Both the position numbers and the translations under genes were made by a program. Under the pieces are notes generated by a model. It did no database searches, had not been told where the DNA came from, and saw nothing but the letters and a program-made list of their open reading frames with translations. 40,056 bases of DNA. Origin: a virus. Location of the stretch: positions 1 through 40,056 of the IMG/VR virus record IMGVR_UViG_3300041412_000016; one strand, given 5' to 3'. Shown piece after piece: positions 8,653 to 40,056 of this stretch; positions within the stretch are counted from its first letter, which is position 1; the number at the start of each line of letters is the position of its first letter.

Positions 8653-9513
8653 ATGGTAAGCCTTCCACTTGAGCAGTTTATTGAATCCGAAGAGTGGGTA
8701 GGCAAAGAAGGCCGGCTTCCTGATGGCCGCTACAAGTCTACTTGGGACGCTATTGGCGGAGTTTGGAACATAGGACCAGGGCTCACTAATGGTGTTACTC
8801 GCGATACGGTAATGACCAAGGAGCAGATAGACCAGGCTTATGCAAAGGAACTAGGACCTTTTGAAGAAGGGGTGCGCAAGTATGTTAAGGTTCCTGTCAC
8901 GAATAACCAGTTTACAGCTCTTGTTTCGTTCGCTTACAACGTGGGACTTTCTGACTTCCATAGCTCTACTCTTCTTCGTTTACTTAATTCTGGAGAGGCT
9001 AACGAAGTTCCCGCTCAACTAAAGCTATGGGTGCATGGCCGCGCTACGGGAAAGAAAGTAATTCCCGGCCTCGAAAACCGGCGCCGGGCTGAGTGTGAGA
9101 TGTGGAACACGCCGGACGGACCCTCTATGCAGCCGCAAGATTATGTGCCACATTATGACCCAGCTTCCCCCGTACCCAAGGGTGCCGCAACTTTGGAGAT
9201 GAAGATGAGTAGTCCTAGTACTATGGTAAACGTTCCGCTTAATGCCACTACCGCTATCATCAGCCAGCTCGGGCATAAAGTAGTTACTGCTACCCAAGGG
9301 GGACTTATCGCAATTATCGCCTATGTTTTTACACACTTTAATAGTGTGTGGGACTTACTTAGCTTGAACTCTTCTACTATATCCGTGTATGCTGCTACCG
9401 CTATAGTAGGTGGTATTGAGTGGTACAAGCATACATGGGTGCAGAACTCTAATGAAACAACAGCAGCTATCATAGATAGCTTGGAGGCTAAACTTAAGGA
9501 ACTAGAGCATTGA
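8653..9513 (+). CDS. GH24 lysozyme with C-terminal membrane hairpin
   Basis: Residues 1-150 are a T4-lysozyme-like glycoside hydrolase that cleaves murein. Glu19 in GKEG is the likely catalytic acid and Asp32 lies in WDAIGGVWNIG. VPVTNNQFTALVSFAYNVG (about 81-98), STLLRLLNSGEA and GLENRRRAE complete the family signature. The usual GYGHT is GPGLT, and Asn39 stands near the position where Thr is common. After a Pro-rich linker (about 152-190), two hydrophobic segments (about 216-236 and 241-256) end in a short coil. GH24 endolysins are normally about 165 residues without such a tail. The 286-residue form may anchor the enzyme, act as a holin, or be a virion-associated lysozyme. GGGAGG precedes the ATG. 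Confidence 0.85.
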   Translation: MVSLPLEQFIESEEWVGKEGRLPDGRYKSTWDAIGGVWNIGPGLTNGVTRDTVMTKEQIDQAYAKELGPFEEGVRKYVKVPVTNNQFTALVSFAYNVGLSDFHSSTLLRLLNSGEANEVPAQLKLWVHGRATGKKVIPGLENRRRAECEMWNTPDGPSMQPQDYVPHYDPASPVPKGAATLEMKMSSPSTMVNVPLNATTAIISQLGHKVVTATQGGLIAIIAYVFTHFNSVWDLLSLNSSTISVYAATAIVGGIEWYKHTWVQNSNETTAAIIDSLEAKLKELEH

Positions 9514-15592: not shown

Positions 15593-17197
15593 ATGACTAG
15601 GTTTTTAGCTGCTTTCTTGATATGGTTAGGGTTATCCACTGCTCAAGCGCAGATTATTGGTTCTCTACCCTATACCTTGACTAATGGTACGACTGCCGAT
15701 GCTGGGCAAGTCATGGCTAATTATGCGTACATAACTAGCCAAGTAAATGCTAATGCTGCTAAAGCAGGGGCTAACTCTAACATTACCTCTATCGTAGGGT
15801 TGACTACTCCATTGTCTAAAGGCCAAGGGGGTAGTGCTACCTATGCAGGGGGTACATCTACAGGCACTGCAAATGTGCAAGCGGTGGCAACGGGAATAAC
15901 TCCATCTGGGTTTACATTAAGTGCTGGCAATACAGTAGAGTTCATTGCGGGATATACGAATACAGGGGCTTTGACGCTAGCCTACAATGGTACTCCTGCA
16001 ACGGCAGTTTTGAAGTTGTCAGCAAGCGGCCTTATACCTCTCTCCGGCGGTGAGATCGTTGCAGGAAACCCGGTAGTTGCTTTCTTCGATGGTACGCAAT
16101 TCGATCTTCTTACACCTTATGCTTTTAATTTGTTTGGTAAAGTATCAACTCTATCCTCTAACACTACAACCGATCTTGGAACGTCTCCTACCCACATCAT
16201 TAGCATATCAGGTGCCACGACTATTACTAGCTTTGGGTCTTCCGCCCAAACGGACTATCCTTTGTACCTCTTGACTTTCTCTGGCTCGCTAACTTTAACC
16301 TACAATGCCACTAGCCTCATACTACCTGGGAAAGTGAGTATTGTTACACAGGCTAACGACTCGGCAACGGCTATATATTTAGGTTCGGGTAACTGGCTAG
16401 TGACAAGCTATACACCCTTTGCCGTGCCCCCGGCATCTATGGGTCTAGCTTTAGCATCAGCTATGGGCTTTGTACAAAGTAACAATGCCAGCACACCTAC
16501 TACTAAAGTAGATTTAAATGTAGGAAATATTATAGTAACTAATTCTAGCAATCGGGGTATAGCTTTTTCCTCTCCATCTACTTGTACTATTGACTTTACT
16601 ACTACTGGTGCTGCTGGACTTGATACGGGTAGTCTGACAACTTCGACGTGGTATTACACTTACTACATATCGAATGGAGCGGTGCTTAGCTGTTTGGGTT
16701 CTCTTTCTGCAACGTCTCCTTCTATGCCCTCAGGTTATACATTCTCTATGAGAGTAGGGGCTATAAGCACAGACGGTAGTAGCCATTTCTACAATACTTT
16801 ACAGAAGGGTAAAAGAGCCGGGTATGTAACGAGTGGTTCTGGCAATACCACTGCATTTCCCTTTACTATCTCCGGTTCTACTAGCGGATGGACCGCTTTT
16901 CAGGTAACGGGTAATGCGTATGGTAGTCCTGCTACAGCAACGGAGTGTATCGTAGAGTTGGGTACACCTGCTACGTCCAATATTGCAGTGGCTCCTAGTA
17001 CGCATTATAACTATGGTACACTTGGGTCTGCTGCTTATGAGAACCCTGCTCCAGTATATCTCCAGGTTCTAGCAAGCGAAGTTGCCGCAACGAAAACTAA
17101 CATCTTGCTAGAGTCTAATAGTATCTACTACCAAGCCAGCGTTGCTGGTGGGCATGTAGACGTAGTAGGTTGGGTAGACTCAGTTAACACGTTTTAA
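15593..17197 (+). CDS. Tail fibre-like protein with a signal-peptide-like N-terminus
   Basis: I chose ATG 15593 (TGGAG about 8 bases upstream). The first 20 residues, MTRFLAAFLIWLGLSTAQAQ, look like a Sec signal peptide ending in Ala-Gln-Ala. Then follows a fibre-like sequence: GTTADAGQVMANYAYITSQV (about 30-49), a Thr/Gly/Ala-rich beta body and many Asn/Ser/Thr repeats. The 534-residue size suits a fibre that binds the host surface. A secretion signal on a virion part is unusual because phage assembly is cytoplasmic. The last codons (DVVGWVDSVNTF) lie in the 115-bp direct repeat whose second copy is at 19,658. The next gene starts at GTG 17209 after GGGAGG. Confidence 0.75.
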   Translation: MTRFLAAFLIWLGLSTAQAQIIGSLPYTLTNGTTADAGQVMANYAYITSQVNANAAKAGANSNITSIVGLTTPLSKGQGGSATYAGGTSTGTANVQAVATGITPSGFTLSAGNTVEFIAGYTNTGALTLAYNGTPATAVLKLSASGLIPLSGGEIVAGNPVVAFFDGTQFDLLTPYAFNLFGKVSTLSSNTTTDLGTSPTHIISISGATTITSFGSSAQTDYPLYLLTFSGSLTLTYNATSLILPGKVSIVTQANDSATAIYLGSGNWLVTSYTPFAVPPASMGLALASAMGFVQSNNASTPTTKVDLNVGNIIVTNSSNRGIAFSSPSTCTIDFTTTGAAGLDTGSLTTSTWYYTYYISNGAVLSCLGSLSATSPSMPSGYTFSMRVGAISTDGSSHFYNTLQKGKRAGYVTSGSGNTTAFPFTISGSTSGWTAFQVTGNAYGSPATATECIVELGTPATSNIAVAPSTHYNYGTLGSAAYENPAPVYLQVLASEVAATKTNILLESNSIYYQASVAGGHVDVVGWVDSVNTF

Positions 17198-17271
17198 GGG
17201 AGGTCCTCGTGAGTGGTCTTGTAGTAACCCCTGTAAAGGATACGCCCAAACTCGTTACTGTTCTTTCGGAT
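17157..17271 (+). repeat. Left copy of the ~115-bp direct repeat around the spike cassette
   Basis: This segment covers the last codons of the fibre gene, the GGGAGG site, the GTG start and the first about 20 codons of the 91-residue gene. It matches 19658-19772 at a constant offset of 2501 bases with only scattered substitutions (best in the first 60 bases). Confidence 0.88.
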
Positions 17272-19388: not shown

Positions 19389-19660
19389 TGCGGTTCATCA
19401 TCATTGTGGCCTGCGTGGTCATTGCATCTCCGGCATGGGCAGGTTGTCCTCTAATTCACCTCACGCCCTGCCATGAGGTCCACAGGCCATCCGCTACGGC
19501 GCGGGCGGTCAAGAGCCTCACGGCTGCGCATAGGGCTCAGGCAGTCCGCGTTGATGATCACGACCGCCGGATTGCAACGCACGACGCGCAATTCAAAGCC
19601 ATGGCAGCAGCCATCGCCGCGCTTCAGCGGCAGGTCGCTGAATTGAAGGCGGCAAGATAG
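19388..19660 (+). CDS. Small secreted coiled-coil protein of the spike cassette
   Basis: The 90-residue protein starts with a strong signal peptide (MRFIIIVACVVIASPAWAG). It is followed by CPLIHLTPC with two Cys, and its C-terminal half (about residues 45-90) is an amphipathic helix rich in Ala, Gln and His/Arg. Its start codon overlaps the spike stop (TGATG), so the two are coupled and probably act together, perhaps as a spike foldase, trimerisation factor or periplasmic partner. A spanin-like lipoprotein is an alternative, but there is no clear lipobox. The stop TAG is the first three bases of the right direct repeat, so the cassette ends exactly there. Its codons are GC-rich. Confidence 0.65.
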   Translation: MRFIIIVACVVIASPAWAGCPLIHLTPCHEVHRPSATARAVKSLTAAHRAQAVRVDDHDRRIATHDAQFKAMAAAIAALQRQVAELKAAR

Positions 19661-19772
19661 ATGTAGTAGGTTGGGTAGACTCAGTTAACGCATTTTAAGG
19701 GAGGTCCTCGTGAGTGGTATTGTAGTAAGCCCTGTAAAGAATACGGACCAACTTGTTGTTGTTCTTTCGGAT
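19658..19772 (+). repeat. Right copy of the ~115-bp direct repeat around the spike cassette
   Basis: It matches 17157-17271. Its first about 40 bases are a dead remnant of the fibre gene's last codons (DVVGWVDSVNAF and stop), no longer attached to any fibre gene. The rest contains the GGGAGG site, GTG start and first codons of the 162-residue gene. Confidence 0.88.
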
Positions 19773-38048: not shown

Positions 38049-38251
38049 TGTCTCCCCCTAGTTAATCGGCTGCTTACAATCATCCCTAGCACGAAGTCTA
38101 CCATGTTCCTAGCTCCTGCCTCTTTTCCGAGTCTGAGCAGTGTGTTTATTTGCTCAGGCGACATGAGGATACTGCCGTCCTCAAGCTCGGTGAAAGCCTG
38201 ATTAGTTTTCCTCGCTCGTTCGGCTAATAGCCTCACTGCTACTTTTATCAT
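38045..38251 (-). CDS. Small hypothetical protein overlapping the polymerase end
   Basis: The 68-residue product (from ATG 38251; a GTG at 38263 is also possible) is helical and basic at its start (MIKVAVRLLAERARKTNQ) and contains ILMSPEQINTLLRLGKEAG. Its first about 50 bases lie inside the 3' end of the polymerase gene. It is coupled to the winged-helix gene by a 4-base overlap. GGGG lies before the ATG. No family recognised. Confidence 0.55.
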   Translation of the reverse strand: MIKVAVRLLAERARKTNQAFTELEDGSILMSPEQINTLLRLGKEAGARNMVDFVLGMIVSSRLTRGRQ

Positions 38252-40056
38252 ACCTATCCCCACTAAAAAGTTCCGCGGCCAAAGGCAAGTTAGGAGCCCA
38301 CTCGGGCACCGTCACCAAGGCCGTGCCAAGCATATCGAGGCACCATTGCTTATCCGCCAAGGGCACGCAACAGACAAGCTCGTCATGCGTGGAGGTCACG
38401 ACGCGGCAGCCCGCCCGCGCGGCGAACTCGCGCCGGACTTTCAACCACGCATCTGTAAGGACGATCCTAGCTAAGAACTGAACCACATTCTCCATAATTG
38501 TACCGCCCCAAATCCTATCAAGGTTGTCCCCCTCATAGTCAAGAAAAAGACCGTTAGGGCCAATGATCCTATGCCCTATCCAAGAGACCGGGCCAAAAAG
38601 TTCATCCACTACATCATACTTTTTGAGTCGGCTTAATGTTCCATCGAACTTTCGCCAAAGATTGGGTATCTCTCTACGTTTCTTACGAAAAAAGTCTACC
38701 ATCCCATTGCTAACGCTACGCTCAACCTTTATCCCCTTGCTTTCGAGGTAGTAGGCGAACGTCTCTTTGCCCATACCATAACCACAGCCTAAGTCCGTTT
38801 CTTTCATCAACCGGCGAAGTTCTTTATTTATTTCCCTAGTTACCTCGACGCCAAAGAAGTCTGTAGCGTCCTCACTATAGACATCTCTGTTCTCGCGAAA
38901 AGCTCCAAGTAGGCCCTCACAACCTGCCAGCCACGCGGTTAGTCTGAACTCGATCTGCGAAAGGTCACCCCATACAAGGGAAAAACCTTCAGGGGCCAGC
39001 AACCCACTCCTAAGCTTGCTCCCTCTTGGGAGATTTTGGAAATTACAGTTAGAAACTATTCTTCCGTTAGCCCAAAATCTATTTTTTCCTCCGCAGTTAA
39101 TAATGTCGTAGACCGTCTCTTCGTGGCCTTCTTGAACCGTTCGGTATTCCTGCATTGCTCTTGGCGCGTTGCTAGCCGTAGGTTCCCCGGCTCGTAATGG
39201 CCATTGTTGTCCCTCCGGTCTACTTCCAATCCCAAATAGTCCGCTCCTGGAAAAGTCTCTATCACATACTGGATAAAGCCCTTCCTCGTTGGAAACTTGT
39301 TCTGTATTCCCCGTCCCCCGTAGCGGTGATAATGCTTGTGCCGTGAGTTGGTGCACCGTGCTTGGATATTGCTCCAGCGGTTGCCCAGGCTCTTGCTTAT
39401 CTGCTTCGATGGAGCGAGTAGTCCCTTGCAATTCTTGCATTGGGTTGTTCGCTTTTGCCAAAGGTTCCCTATCGGGATTGCTTCCTCTCTTCCGCAGATG
39501 CAACGGCAAAGCACTTTCGCTCCGGGTCGCAACACTATCGGTGCGAACACTAACCAGCTTTCGATTCGCGTCCCCAGGTAATGCTCCACCCATAAGCGAG
39601 ATGCCTCGCTTTTTTGCTTCGCCGATAGAGAGCTTGCTACTACCTTCTGTCCAGCAAACATGATCTGGAGTGGCGATAACACCACACCACTCAATAACTT
39701 CTCTTCGGCCTCGGCATACAAGACCTTCGTGATTAACGAATTCTTCGCCATCCCATACCATCTCCCCCGTTCCTAAGGTATCTAAAGTTTTATAGTACCA
39801 CCCTTCTTGATTCGCAACAATTATCCAAGTGTCCCCCGCAAGGCATTTATCCCCACCTGAGAACCGGCCCGTATGGCAGCCATAATAACGCAAATAGATC
39901 GGCATAGGACCGCGCCCGGCCATGCCTAGAAGCCTTCCTGCCCTAGTTTCATGAATGCTAGTTTTTGCAGCAACTCTTGCTTCGACAAGATCGCGAACTC
40001 GTTCATTAGGGTGCTCCTGTAAGGCTTGAAAGTCTAAGTCCGTCTTAGCGAACGCG
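38202..40056 (-). CDS. Family A DNA polymerase, 5' end cut by the window edge, interrupted by an intein
   Basis: The open frame runs from the right edge (no stop in 39,924-40,056) to 38,202, so this is the C-terminal part of a replicative polymerase. An ATG at 39923 is internal. The mature exteins read ARVAAKTSIHETRAGRL, then YGCHTGRFSGGDK joined to CNFQNLPRGS, the conserved family A motif near the palm. Motif A is WGDLSQIEFRLTAWLAG, motif B RRLMKETDLGCGYGMG and motif C STHDEL, with the two catalytic Asp (in GDLSQ and HDE) present. No exonuclease domain lies in the visible part. A 266-codon intein separates GGDK and CNFQ. The 3' end overlaps the next gene. Confidence 0.93.
   Translation of the reverse strand, partial: AFAKTDLDFQALQEHPNERVRDLVEARVAAKTSIHETRAGRLLGMAGRGPMPIYLRYYGCHTGRFSGGDKCLAGDTWIIVANQEGWYYKTLDTLGTGEMVWDGEEFVNHEGLVCRGRREVIEWCGVIATPDHVCWTEGSSKLSIGEAKKRGISLMGGALPGDANRKLVSVRTDSVATRSESALPLHLRKRGSNPDREPLAKANNPMQELQGTTRSIEADKQEPGQPLEQYPSTVHQLTAQALSPLRGTGNTEQVSNEEGLYPVCDRDFSRSGLFGIGSRPEGQQWPLRAGEPTASNAPRAMQEYRTVQEGHEETVYDIINCGGKNRFWANGRIVSNCNFQNLPRGSKLRSGLLAPEGFSLVWGDLSQIEFRLTAWLAGCEGLLGAFRENRDVYSEDATDFFGVEVTREINKELRRLMKETDLGCGYGMGKETFAYYLESKGIKVERSVSNGMVDFFRKKRREIPNLWRKFDGTLSRLKKYDVVDELFGPVSWIGHRIIGPNGLFLDYEGDNLDRIWGGTIMENVVQFLARIVLTDAWLKVRREFAARAGCRVVTSTHDELVCCVPLADKQWCLDMLGTALVTVPEWAPNLPLAAELFSGDRYDKSSSEAISRTSEEN
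39048..39845 (-). mobile_element. Intein in the DNA polymerase (266 codons)
   Basis: It splices itself out of the polymerase. Block A is CLAGDTWIIV, starting with the first Cys (codon 39845-39843). Block B is VIATPDHVCW, with Thr-Pro-Asp-His (about intein residues 57-66). Block F is VYDIINCGGKNRFWANG and block G RIVSN, followed by the extein Cys (39047-39045). The penultimate residue, usually His, is Ser. The insertion lies between GGDK and CNFQNLP of the polymerase. Between block B and block F about 170 in-frame codons have no LAGLIDADG or HNH motif and no recognisable domain. The same DNA encodes an HNH endonuclease in the +1 frame. A splicing domain needs only about 130-140 residues, so this linker is presumably the by-product of the overlapping gene. 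Confidence 0.92.
39056..39751 (-). CDS. HNH homing endonuclease overprinted inside the intein in the +1 frame
   Basis: The 231-residue product lies wholly inside the intein, shifted by one base from its frame. From about residue 57 it follows phage HNH endonucleases: LGTRIESWLVFAP, a Cys segment VLCRCICGREE with CKNC (82-108, zinc-knuckle-like), RWSNIQARCTNSRHKHYHRYGGRGI (about 125-149) and the nuclease core LEVDRRDNNGHYEPGNLRLAT (about 175-195) followed by RQEQCRN. ATG 39751 has GGGGGAGA 9 bases upstream, so it can be translated on its own. The first about 55 residues come from DNA that also encodes blocks A-B and are probably dispensable. The stop lies 8 bases before the intein's last codon. 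Confidence 0.85.
   Translation of the reverse strand: MAKNSLITKVLYAEAEEKLLSGVVLSPLQIMFAGQKVVASSLSAKQKSEASRLWVEHYLGTRIESWLVFAPIVLRPGAKVLCRCICGREEAIPIGNLWQKRTTQCKNCKGLLAPSKQISKSLGNRWSNIQARCTNSRHKHYHRYGGRGIQNKFPTRKGFIQYVIETFPGADYLGLEVDRRDNNGHYEPGNLRLATRQEQCRNTERFKKATKRRSTTLLTAEEKIDFGLTEE

Follow-up and report, generated by a model that had tools for sequence, protein, structure and literature searches.

The family A DNA polymerase (Pol A) gene of phage record IMGVR_UViG_3300041412_000016, the 40,056-base stretch of DNA that we analysed and call the window, very likely carries a mobile intein whose HNH endonuclease is a separate gene, read in the +1 frame across the linker of the intein and part of the N-terminal splicing (Hint N) subdomain, and made from an internal start. 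According to this proposal, the precursor (polymerase, Hint N, disordered linker, Hint C, polymerase) would splice itself to give the mature polymerase, and ribosomes on the same transcript would start inside Hint N and produce a free HNH-type endonuclease. This nuclease would cut intein-free polymerase alleles, and repair would copy the intein together with flanking DNA. The linker would need only to stay open, its sequence being the shadow of the nuclease. Of these steps, we infer that the precursor splices, that the nuclease is translated and that it cuts at the insertion site.

The partial Pol A ORF occupies positions 38202 to 40055 of the minus strand, on which the intein, its parts and the nuclease ORF with its start signals also lie. 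Its N-terminus falls beyond the end of the record, and its 617 aa, which match the Pfam model DNA_pol_A (2.9e-21), run stop-free through the intein. The intein (39048 to 39845; 266 aa, Cys1 to Asn266) was delimited by comparison with the polymerases of two close intein-free phages, L073 and L074, in which the insert is absent and the empty site reads GGDK directly followed by SNLQNLP; the junction is precise. This comparison and the list of ORFs bore out the intein and ORF coordinates and the frames given in a preliminary description of this DNA. The four splicing blocks named there are all present: A (CLAGDTW) and B (TPDH) in the Hint N subdomain (39570 to 39845), and F (VYDIINCG) and G (SN, followed by the +1 C) in the Hint C-terminal subdomain (39048 to 39134). 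The splice residues are C1, TPDH, N266 and the +1 Cys at 39045-39047, the one departure being the penultimate residue, which is Ser here and usually His. Between the subdomains lies the host-frame linker (39135 to 39569), stop-free and shadowing the HNH gene. The host gene is thus one unbroken ORF, whereas a split intein or fractured gene consists of two.

Structure prediction with AlphaFold, based on an alignment of 14 family members, gave a pLDDT of about 95 across most of residues 6-90, in agreement with the Hint N assignment from alignment A1, and values above 90 for the Hint C strands, predicted at model residues 246-254, 261-264 and 267-270. Nearly all of the approximately 145 intervening residues scored below 50, which is consistent with the earlier suggestion that the in-frame linker is a shadow lacking any known fold: it is predicted to be disordered. 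When the model was compared with the PDB using Foldseek, the top ranks were all inteins or Hint domains (gp41-1, NpuDnaE, VidaL, Ssp DnaB), the best match having an E-value of 3.2e-3 and a probability of 1.00, and none reaching 0.001. A profile also gave a sequence match to PI-MtuI, the intein of Mtu RecA (E 3.5e-4). Taken together, sequence and model identify the insert as an intein that looks competent for splicing.

The HNH-type endonuclease ORF (39056 to 39751, minus strand; 231 aa) reads at +1 to the polymerase across 87% of the intein, and not in the frame of the splicing domain as in a canonical intein. That the +1 frame holds a full HNH endonuclease, as previously claimed, agrees with the matches of its product to phrog_374 'HNH endonuclease' (9.1e-28), phrog_3377 (1.7e-22) and other HNH PHROGs; among the Pfam and NCBIfam models no match was found. 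The zinc ribbon and HNH-like core (39170 to 39505; YGGRGI...DRRDNNGHYEPGN) were recognized from the invariant columns of alignment A5, whose motif residues the window shares with 16 relatives. The nuclease motif DRxDNNGHYEPGN, invariant in the family, has Asp-Arg where His is expected (D-R...N, not H-N-H). The predicted HNH model, which is mediocre (mean pLDDT 70.9), gave no fold match in the PDB, and a profile search of the HNH alignment against the PDB gave chance matches only. The core of the nuclease had been placed exactly between blocks B and F; the ORF does span that interval, but it also overlaps the Hint N subdomain. Such nucleases have been missed because annotation mostly reports one long polymerase, and because Pfam detects the intein/Hint domain in only 1 of 14 family members tested and the HNH domain in 0 of 17.

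For the start of the nuclease, a candidate ribosome binding site, GGGGGAG (39762 to 39768), lies on the minus strand with a spacing of 10 nt before the ATG at 39751. The proposal that the gene has its own ribosome binding site is thus plausible for this pair, but relatives start about 60 nt further in, and TTG 39694 and GTG 39685 (39683 to 39694), near the position conserved in relatives, are possible alternative starts. Across the family, a putative internal start of the endonuclease's own is supported: a ribosome binding site match of at least 5 nt with a start codon occurs in the nuclease frame of 86 of 113 inteins, compared with 15 of 113 in the third frame. The match extends to at least 6 nt in 46, and in 31 of these 46 the start lies exactly 145 nt downstream of Cys1, at Hint codons for K/R-E-V that can read AAGGAGGT. 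The glutamate at this place is encoded by GAG in 66 of 82 cases, against 43% GAG usage elsewhere in the host ORF. The window's start site is weaker than the family's. It is important to note that mini-inteins without HNH retain the same ribosome binding site and ATG, so that they did not discriminate as a no-nuclease control, perhaps because they lost the nuclease recently. Since the signal could be a fossil in them, the ribosome binding site and ATG are not proof of current use.

Special attention was given to the maintenance of two open frames over the same DNA. We held the HNH protein fixed and redrew its synonymous codons in 4,000 draws of each of two kinds. The host frame of the window has 0 stops, where 15.9 are expected from contig codon usage and 7.7 from a shuffle of the gene's own codons; none of the 4,000 draws of either kind left it stop-free, and the third frame holds 15 stops. 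In the viral set of inteins described below, where having no stops is what places an intein in the 'open' class, the overlaps of the 112 inteins scored (23,271 codons) hold 0 host-frame stops where 1,094 are expected, and in a second set, from bacterial genomes and named phages, there are 0 against 434.6 over 9,272 codons. The distribution of stops is two-peaked: split members have 12-30, at or above expectation, and one intermediate, L209, has two. A frame open by chance is ruled out by these shuffles in the window and in both sets, and sequencing error or compensating indels by near-identical contigs on both sides and by the recurrence of the +1 layout, which is found in 113 viral inteins. 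The earlier argument that two open frames speak against chance and error is therefore upheld.

Selection was measured in other members of the family because the window intein has no close intein-bearing relative. Ten close pairs of relatives, some of which share sequences, provided 456 differences in the overlap, and these fall mainly in HNH third positions. Relative to expectation, synonymous changes in the HNH frame occur 2.76 times and nonsynonymous changes 0.47 times (a ratio of approximately 0.17), so in these relatives the nuclease is under protein-level purifying selection. Among HNH-synonymous changes, those that alter the host residue occur at 3.06 times expectation and those that leave it unaltered at 2.78 times. 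Changes that would make a stop are depleted to 0.45, the residual counts coming from pairs that differ at several bases of one codon, with no actual stop present. In the relatives, then, the host-frame linker is constrained only to stay open, with no constraint on its amino acids. The preliminary description held that any mutation would hit two proteins, and itself named purifying selection in only one frame over the linker as the finding that would speak against its reading. By that standard the two-protein conflict fails, since the HNH frame shows purifying selection and the linker frame is neutral except for stops. The overprinted architecture stands, because the openness of the host frame is strongly maintained.

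By HNH and Hint searches of viral contigs, with 80 of 581 confirmed Hint matches entering the sampling, we identified 135 distinct inteins of the window's Hint type. In 113 of them, the window's own copy included, the HNH gene lies at +1 and the host frame is open to Hint C; in seven the HNH gene lies at +1 and the host frame is broken; four run off the contig; and nine lack an HNH gene, eight of these being mini-inteins open to Hint C. One of the remaining two, in the DNA polymerase of Escherichia phage fPoEco01 (Kagunavirus; L077:1927-5079, MT711526), has its HNH gene at +2. The other belongs to Salmonella phage SS3e (Jerseyvirus, L079), where the polymerase is broken and the HNH is fused in frame to the N half. 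As a side observation, for both phages, which infect E. coli and Salmonella, the polymerase intein is listed with its HNH as a +2 overprint. The second set, obtained by scanning genome contigs with alignment A6, comprises 58 inteins from bacterial genomes and four named phages; 47 of them are at +1 and open, nine are mini-inteins of 111-143 aa, and an in-frame HNH is present in 0 of the 58. In neither set did we find an intein that combines an unbroken host gene with an in-frame HNH.

The family is found in Pol A genes, at several different sites, in SF2 helicase genes and probably in the gene of a DnaB-like helicase, which falls slightly short of the curated Pfam cut-off. Named phages in the family are APSE-1, Gardnerella phage AB1, Streptococcus phages and Caulobacter phage RW. 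Similarities among the Hint and HNH sequences of 70 members are correlated (Mantel r 0.68, 0 of 999 permutations), implying that the two mostly travel together. The overprinted +1 layout is the usual form of a large, widespread and mobile intein family, seemingly little noticed so far, and not the oddity of one phage. Three further loci were observed. L154 has two overprinted inteins in one polymerase gene; L002:1231-5328 joins a uracil-DNA glycosylase-like domain to a family A DNA polymerase that also has an overprinted intein; and L062:3893-4372 is an HNH ORF at +1 within a 2,190-aa ORF in which no intein motifs were found, an arrangement resembling the hidden HNH insertion of the ShiLan type discussed below.

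The broken members suggest how split inteins may arise. At the same polymerase site as in the window, L072 has a relative of the window intein (its intein 1) whose host frame is broken, with 26 stops in the overlap. Its HNH ORF lies between the two halves and extends into each; a second, overprinted intein is found elsewhere in the same gene (L072:333-4018). In most of the seven members with a broken host frame, the C half has an ATG, which in four of them follows closely on a ribosome binding site match of at least 4 nt. A stop in the shadow would therefore be a simple route to a split intein, a proposal drawn from the states seen and not from a reconstructed history.

The window also bears the mark of a recent arrival. 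Two intein-free contigs are 99.7-99.9% identical to it over 24.0 kb and 99.5-99.99% over 31.6 kb, and 99.3-99.6% identical next to the polymerase. Comparison with this near-identical phage DNA delimits a diverged tract at about 38568 to 39936, which consists of the intein with approximately 90 bp upstream and 480 bp downstream of its site, and within which extein identity is 57-88%. The last 120 or so bases beyond the patch are identical again in both contigs. Gene conversion from a diverged donor leaves such a patch, and we read it as a co-conversion footprint of recent invasion; this would be the spread into empty alleles that homing requires, with the part played by the nuclease presumed. 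Elsewhere in the window, a 115-bp repeat (17157-17271 and 19658-19772) is 89.6% identical between its two copies, 2.5 kb apart. Positions 1-127 occur twice in the related contig G002 (L243:7996-8122 and 8812-8938), 816 bases apart, and G002 spans approximately 4.6 kb joining both ends of the window. Given this junction and the 127-base repeat, we take the window for an incomplete genome that is probably circularly permuted.

Four other explanations of the overlap were weighed. The nuclease might have no start of its own and be made by programmed frameshifting, with a +1 slip near the end of Hint N that yields a Hint N-HNH fusion. The overlap of the HNH frame with the Hint N region and the constancy of +1 throughout the family would suit such a slip, but the ribosome binding site and ATG stand at a fixed place of the HNH frame in most relatives, and in most members that frame is closed upstream of mid-Hint N, opening at a median of 139 nt after Cys1, which makes frameshifting improbable, though less so for the window itself. 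We regard as very improbable that the +1 gene is a dead relic of a canonical intein, once in frame and shifted by indels, with only the intein still working. Homing endonucleases do often decay, and mini-inteins without HNH exist in this family; nonetheless, the same +1 frame recurs in 113 and 47 distinct inteins, the HNH frame shows purifying selection and conserved start signals, the window intein invaded recently, and 231 codons kept open with all motif residues would be unexpected in a relic.

Very little credence can be given to the idea that the +1 protein, though produced, has a role other than that of a homing endonuclease (a DNA-binding regulator, for instance), the intein spreading by general recombination. 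The deviation of the active-site motif from H-N-H, the zinc ribbon and the lack of a structural match would fit it, whereas the strong PHROG HNH matches count against it; homing agrees with the co-conversion footprint and with the way these inteins are scattered over many genes and sites. A further possibility is a group I or other self-splicing intron in which the open polymerase frame and the Hint resemblance are incidental; in its favor, phage group I introns often carry HNH genes. We give this practically no weight: at gathering threshold no Rfam family, and so no group I catalytic RNA core, was found in the whole window, and the group I intron was rejected on this ground; the Hint fold and splice residues are present; and the strongly constrained stop-free host frame would be needless for an intron. 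An intein with an overprinted nuclease gene remains the explanation that we prefer. On balance, although with less assurance than for the window itself, we also consider it probable that these elements constitute a large class of mobile inteins, undescribed so far, that as a rule encode splicing in one frame and homing in another that overlaps it. In such a class, codons of a Hint strand would double as the ribosome binding site and start of the nuclease, the linker would be nothing but shadow, under selection for the absence of stops alone, and the whole element would move as a unit between DNA polymerase and helicase genes, loss of the nuclease giving mini-inteins and a stop in the shadow giving split inteins.

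In the textbook intein, endonuclease and splicing domain share one polypeptide; this broadly distributed family would decouple them by reading frame, so that the dose of nuclease could be tuned independently of splicing in an element still inherited as a unit. For the study of overlapping genes, these inteins also supply many natural examples in which constraint acts on the sequence of one frame but only on the openness of the other, and they show in concrete terms how a contiguous intein could become a split one. Splicing tools might also be made from inteins whose linker is stop-free, disordered and sequence-free.

The window intein shares with canonical endonuclease-bearing inteins (LAGLIDADG or HNH) the Hint fold, Cys1, the terminal Asn, a nucleophilic +1 residue and an endonuclease in the B-F interval; in those, however, the endonuclease is in frame, whereas here it is out of frame, separately started and outside the excised intein. 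'Fractured genes', in which an endonuclease gene separates the two halves of a split intein, were reportedly described by Dassa et al. in 2009. Intein 1 of L072 is like them in having a free-standing endonuclease gene between IntN and IntC; the window intein differs from them in being contiguous, with its host frame unbroken. Among published elements, the ShiLan domain of a phage methylase comes closest: its HNH is out of frame, and it has no splicing domain (Arsenault, Gosselin, Gogarten 2025, PMC11855218). With this domain and the Pacc40 insertion of actinophage DNA methylases, the window shares a hidden out-of-frame HNH, a host frame left open and a disjunct, homing-like distribution (PMC11855218). 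In contrast to these insertions, which have no Hint domain and no detectable ribosome binding site, the HNH of the window is surrounded and overlapped by a full intein, Hint domain included (PMC11855218). Beside a remark on overlapping frames, the ShiLan authors cite two works on non-canonical inteins, a paper of 1998 and a preprint of 2025 that concerns those of actinophages (PMC11855218). In the open full-text literature, a search that left the Gosselin 2025 preprint and Gorbalenya 1998 outside its scope, we found no intein with an out-of-frame endonuclease, and no text that treats the Pol A P45 of APSE-1 and its nested ORF P46 (RefSeq NC_000935) as one, the original description likewise being outside the search. 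P45/P46 differs from the window in insertion site and host; it belongs to the same family, with a Hint intein and its HNH at +1, and the overprinted layout is already visible there as annotation.
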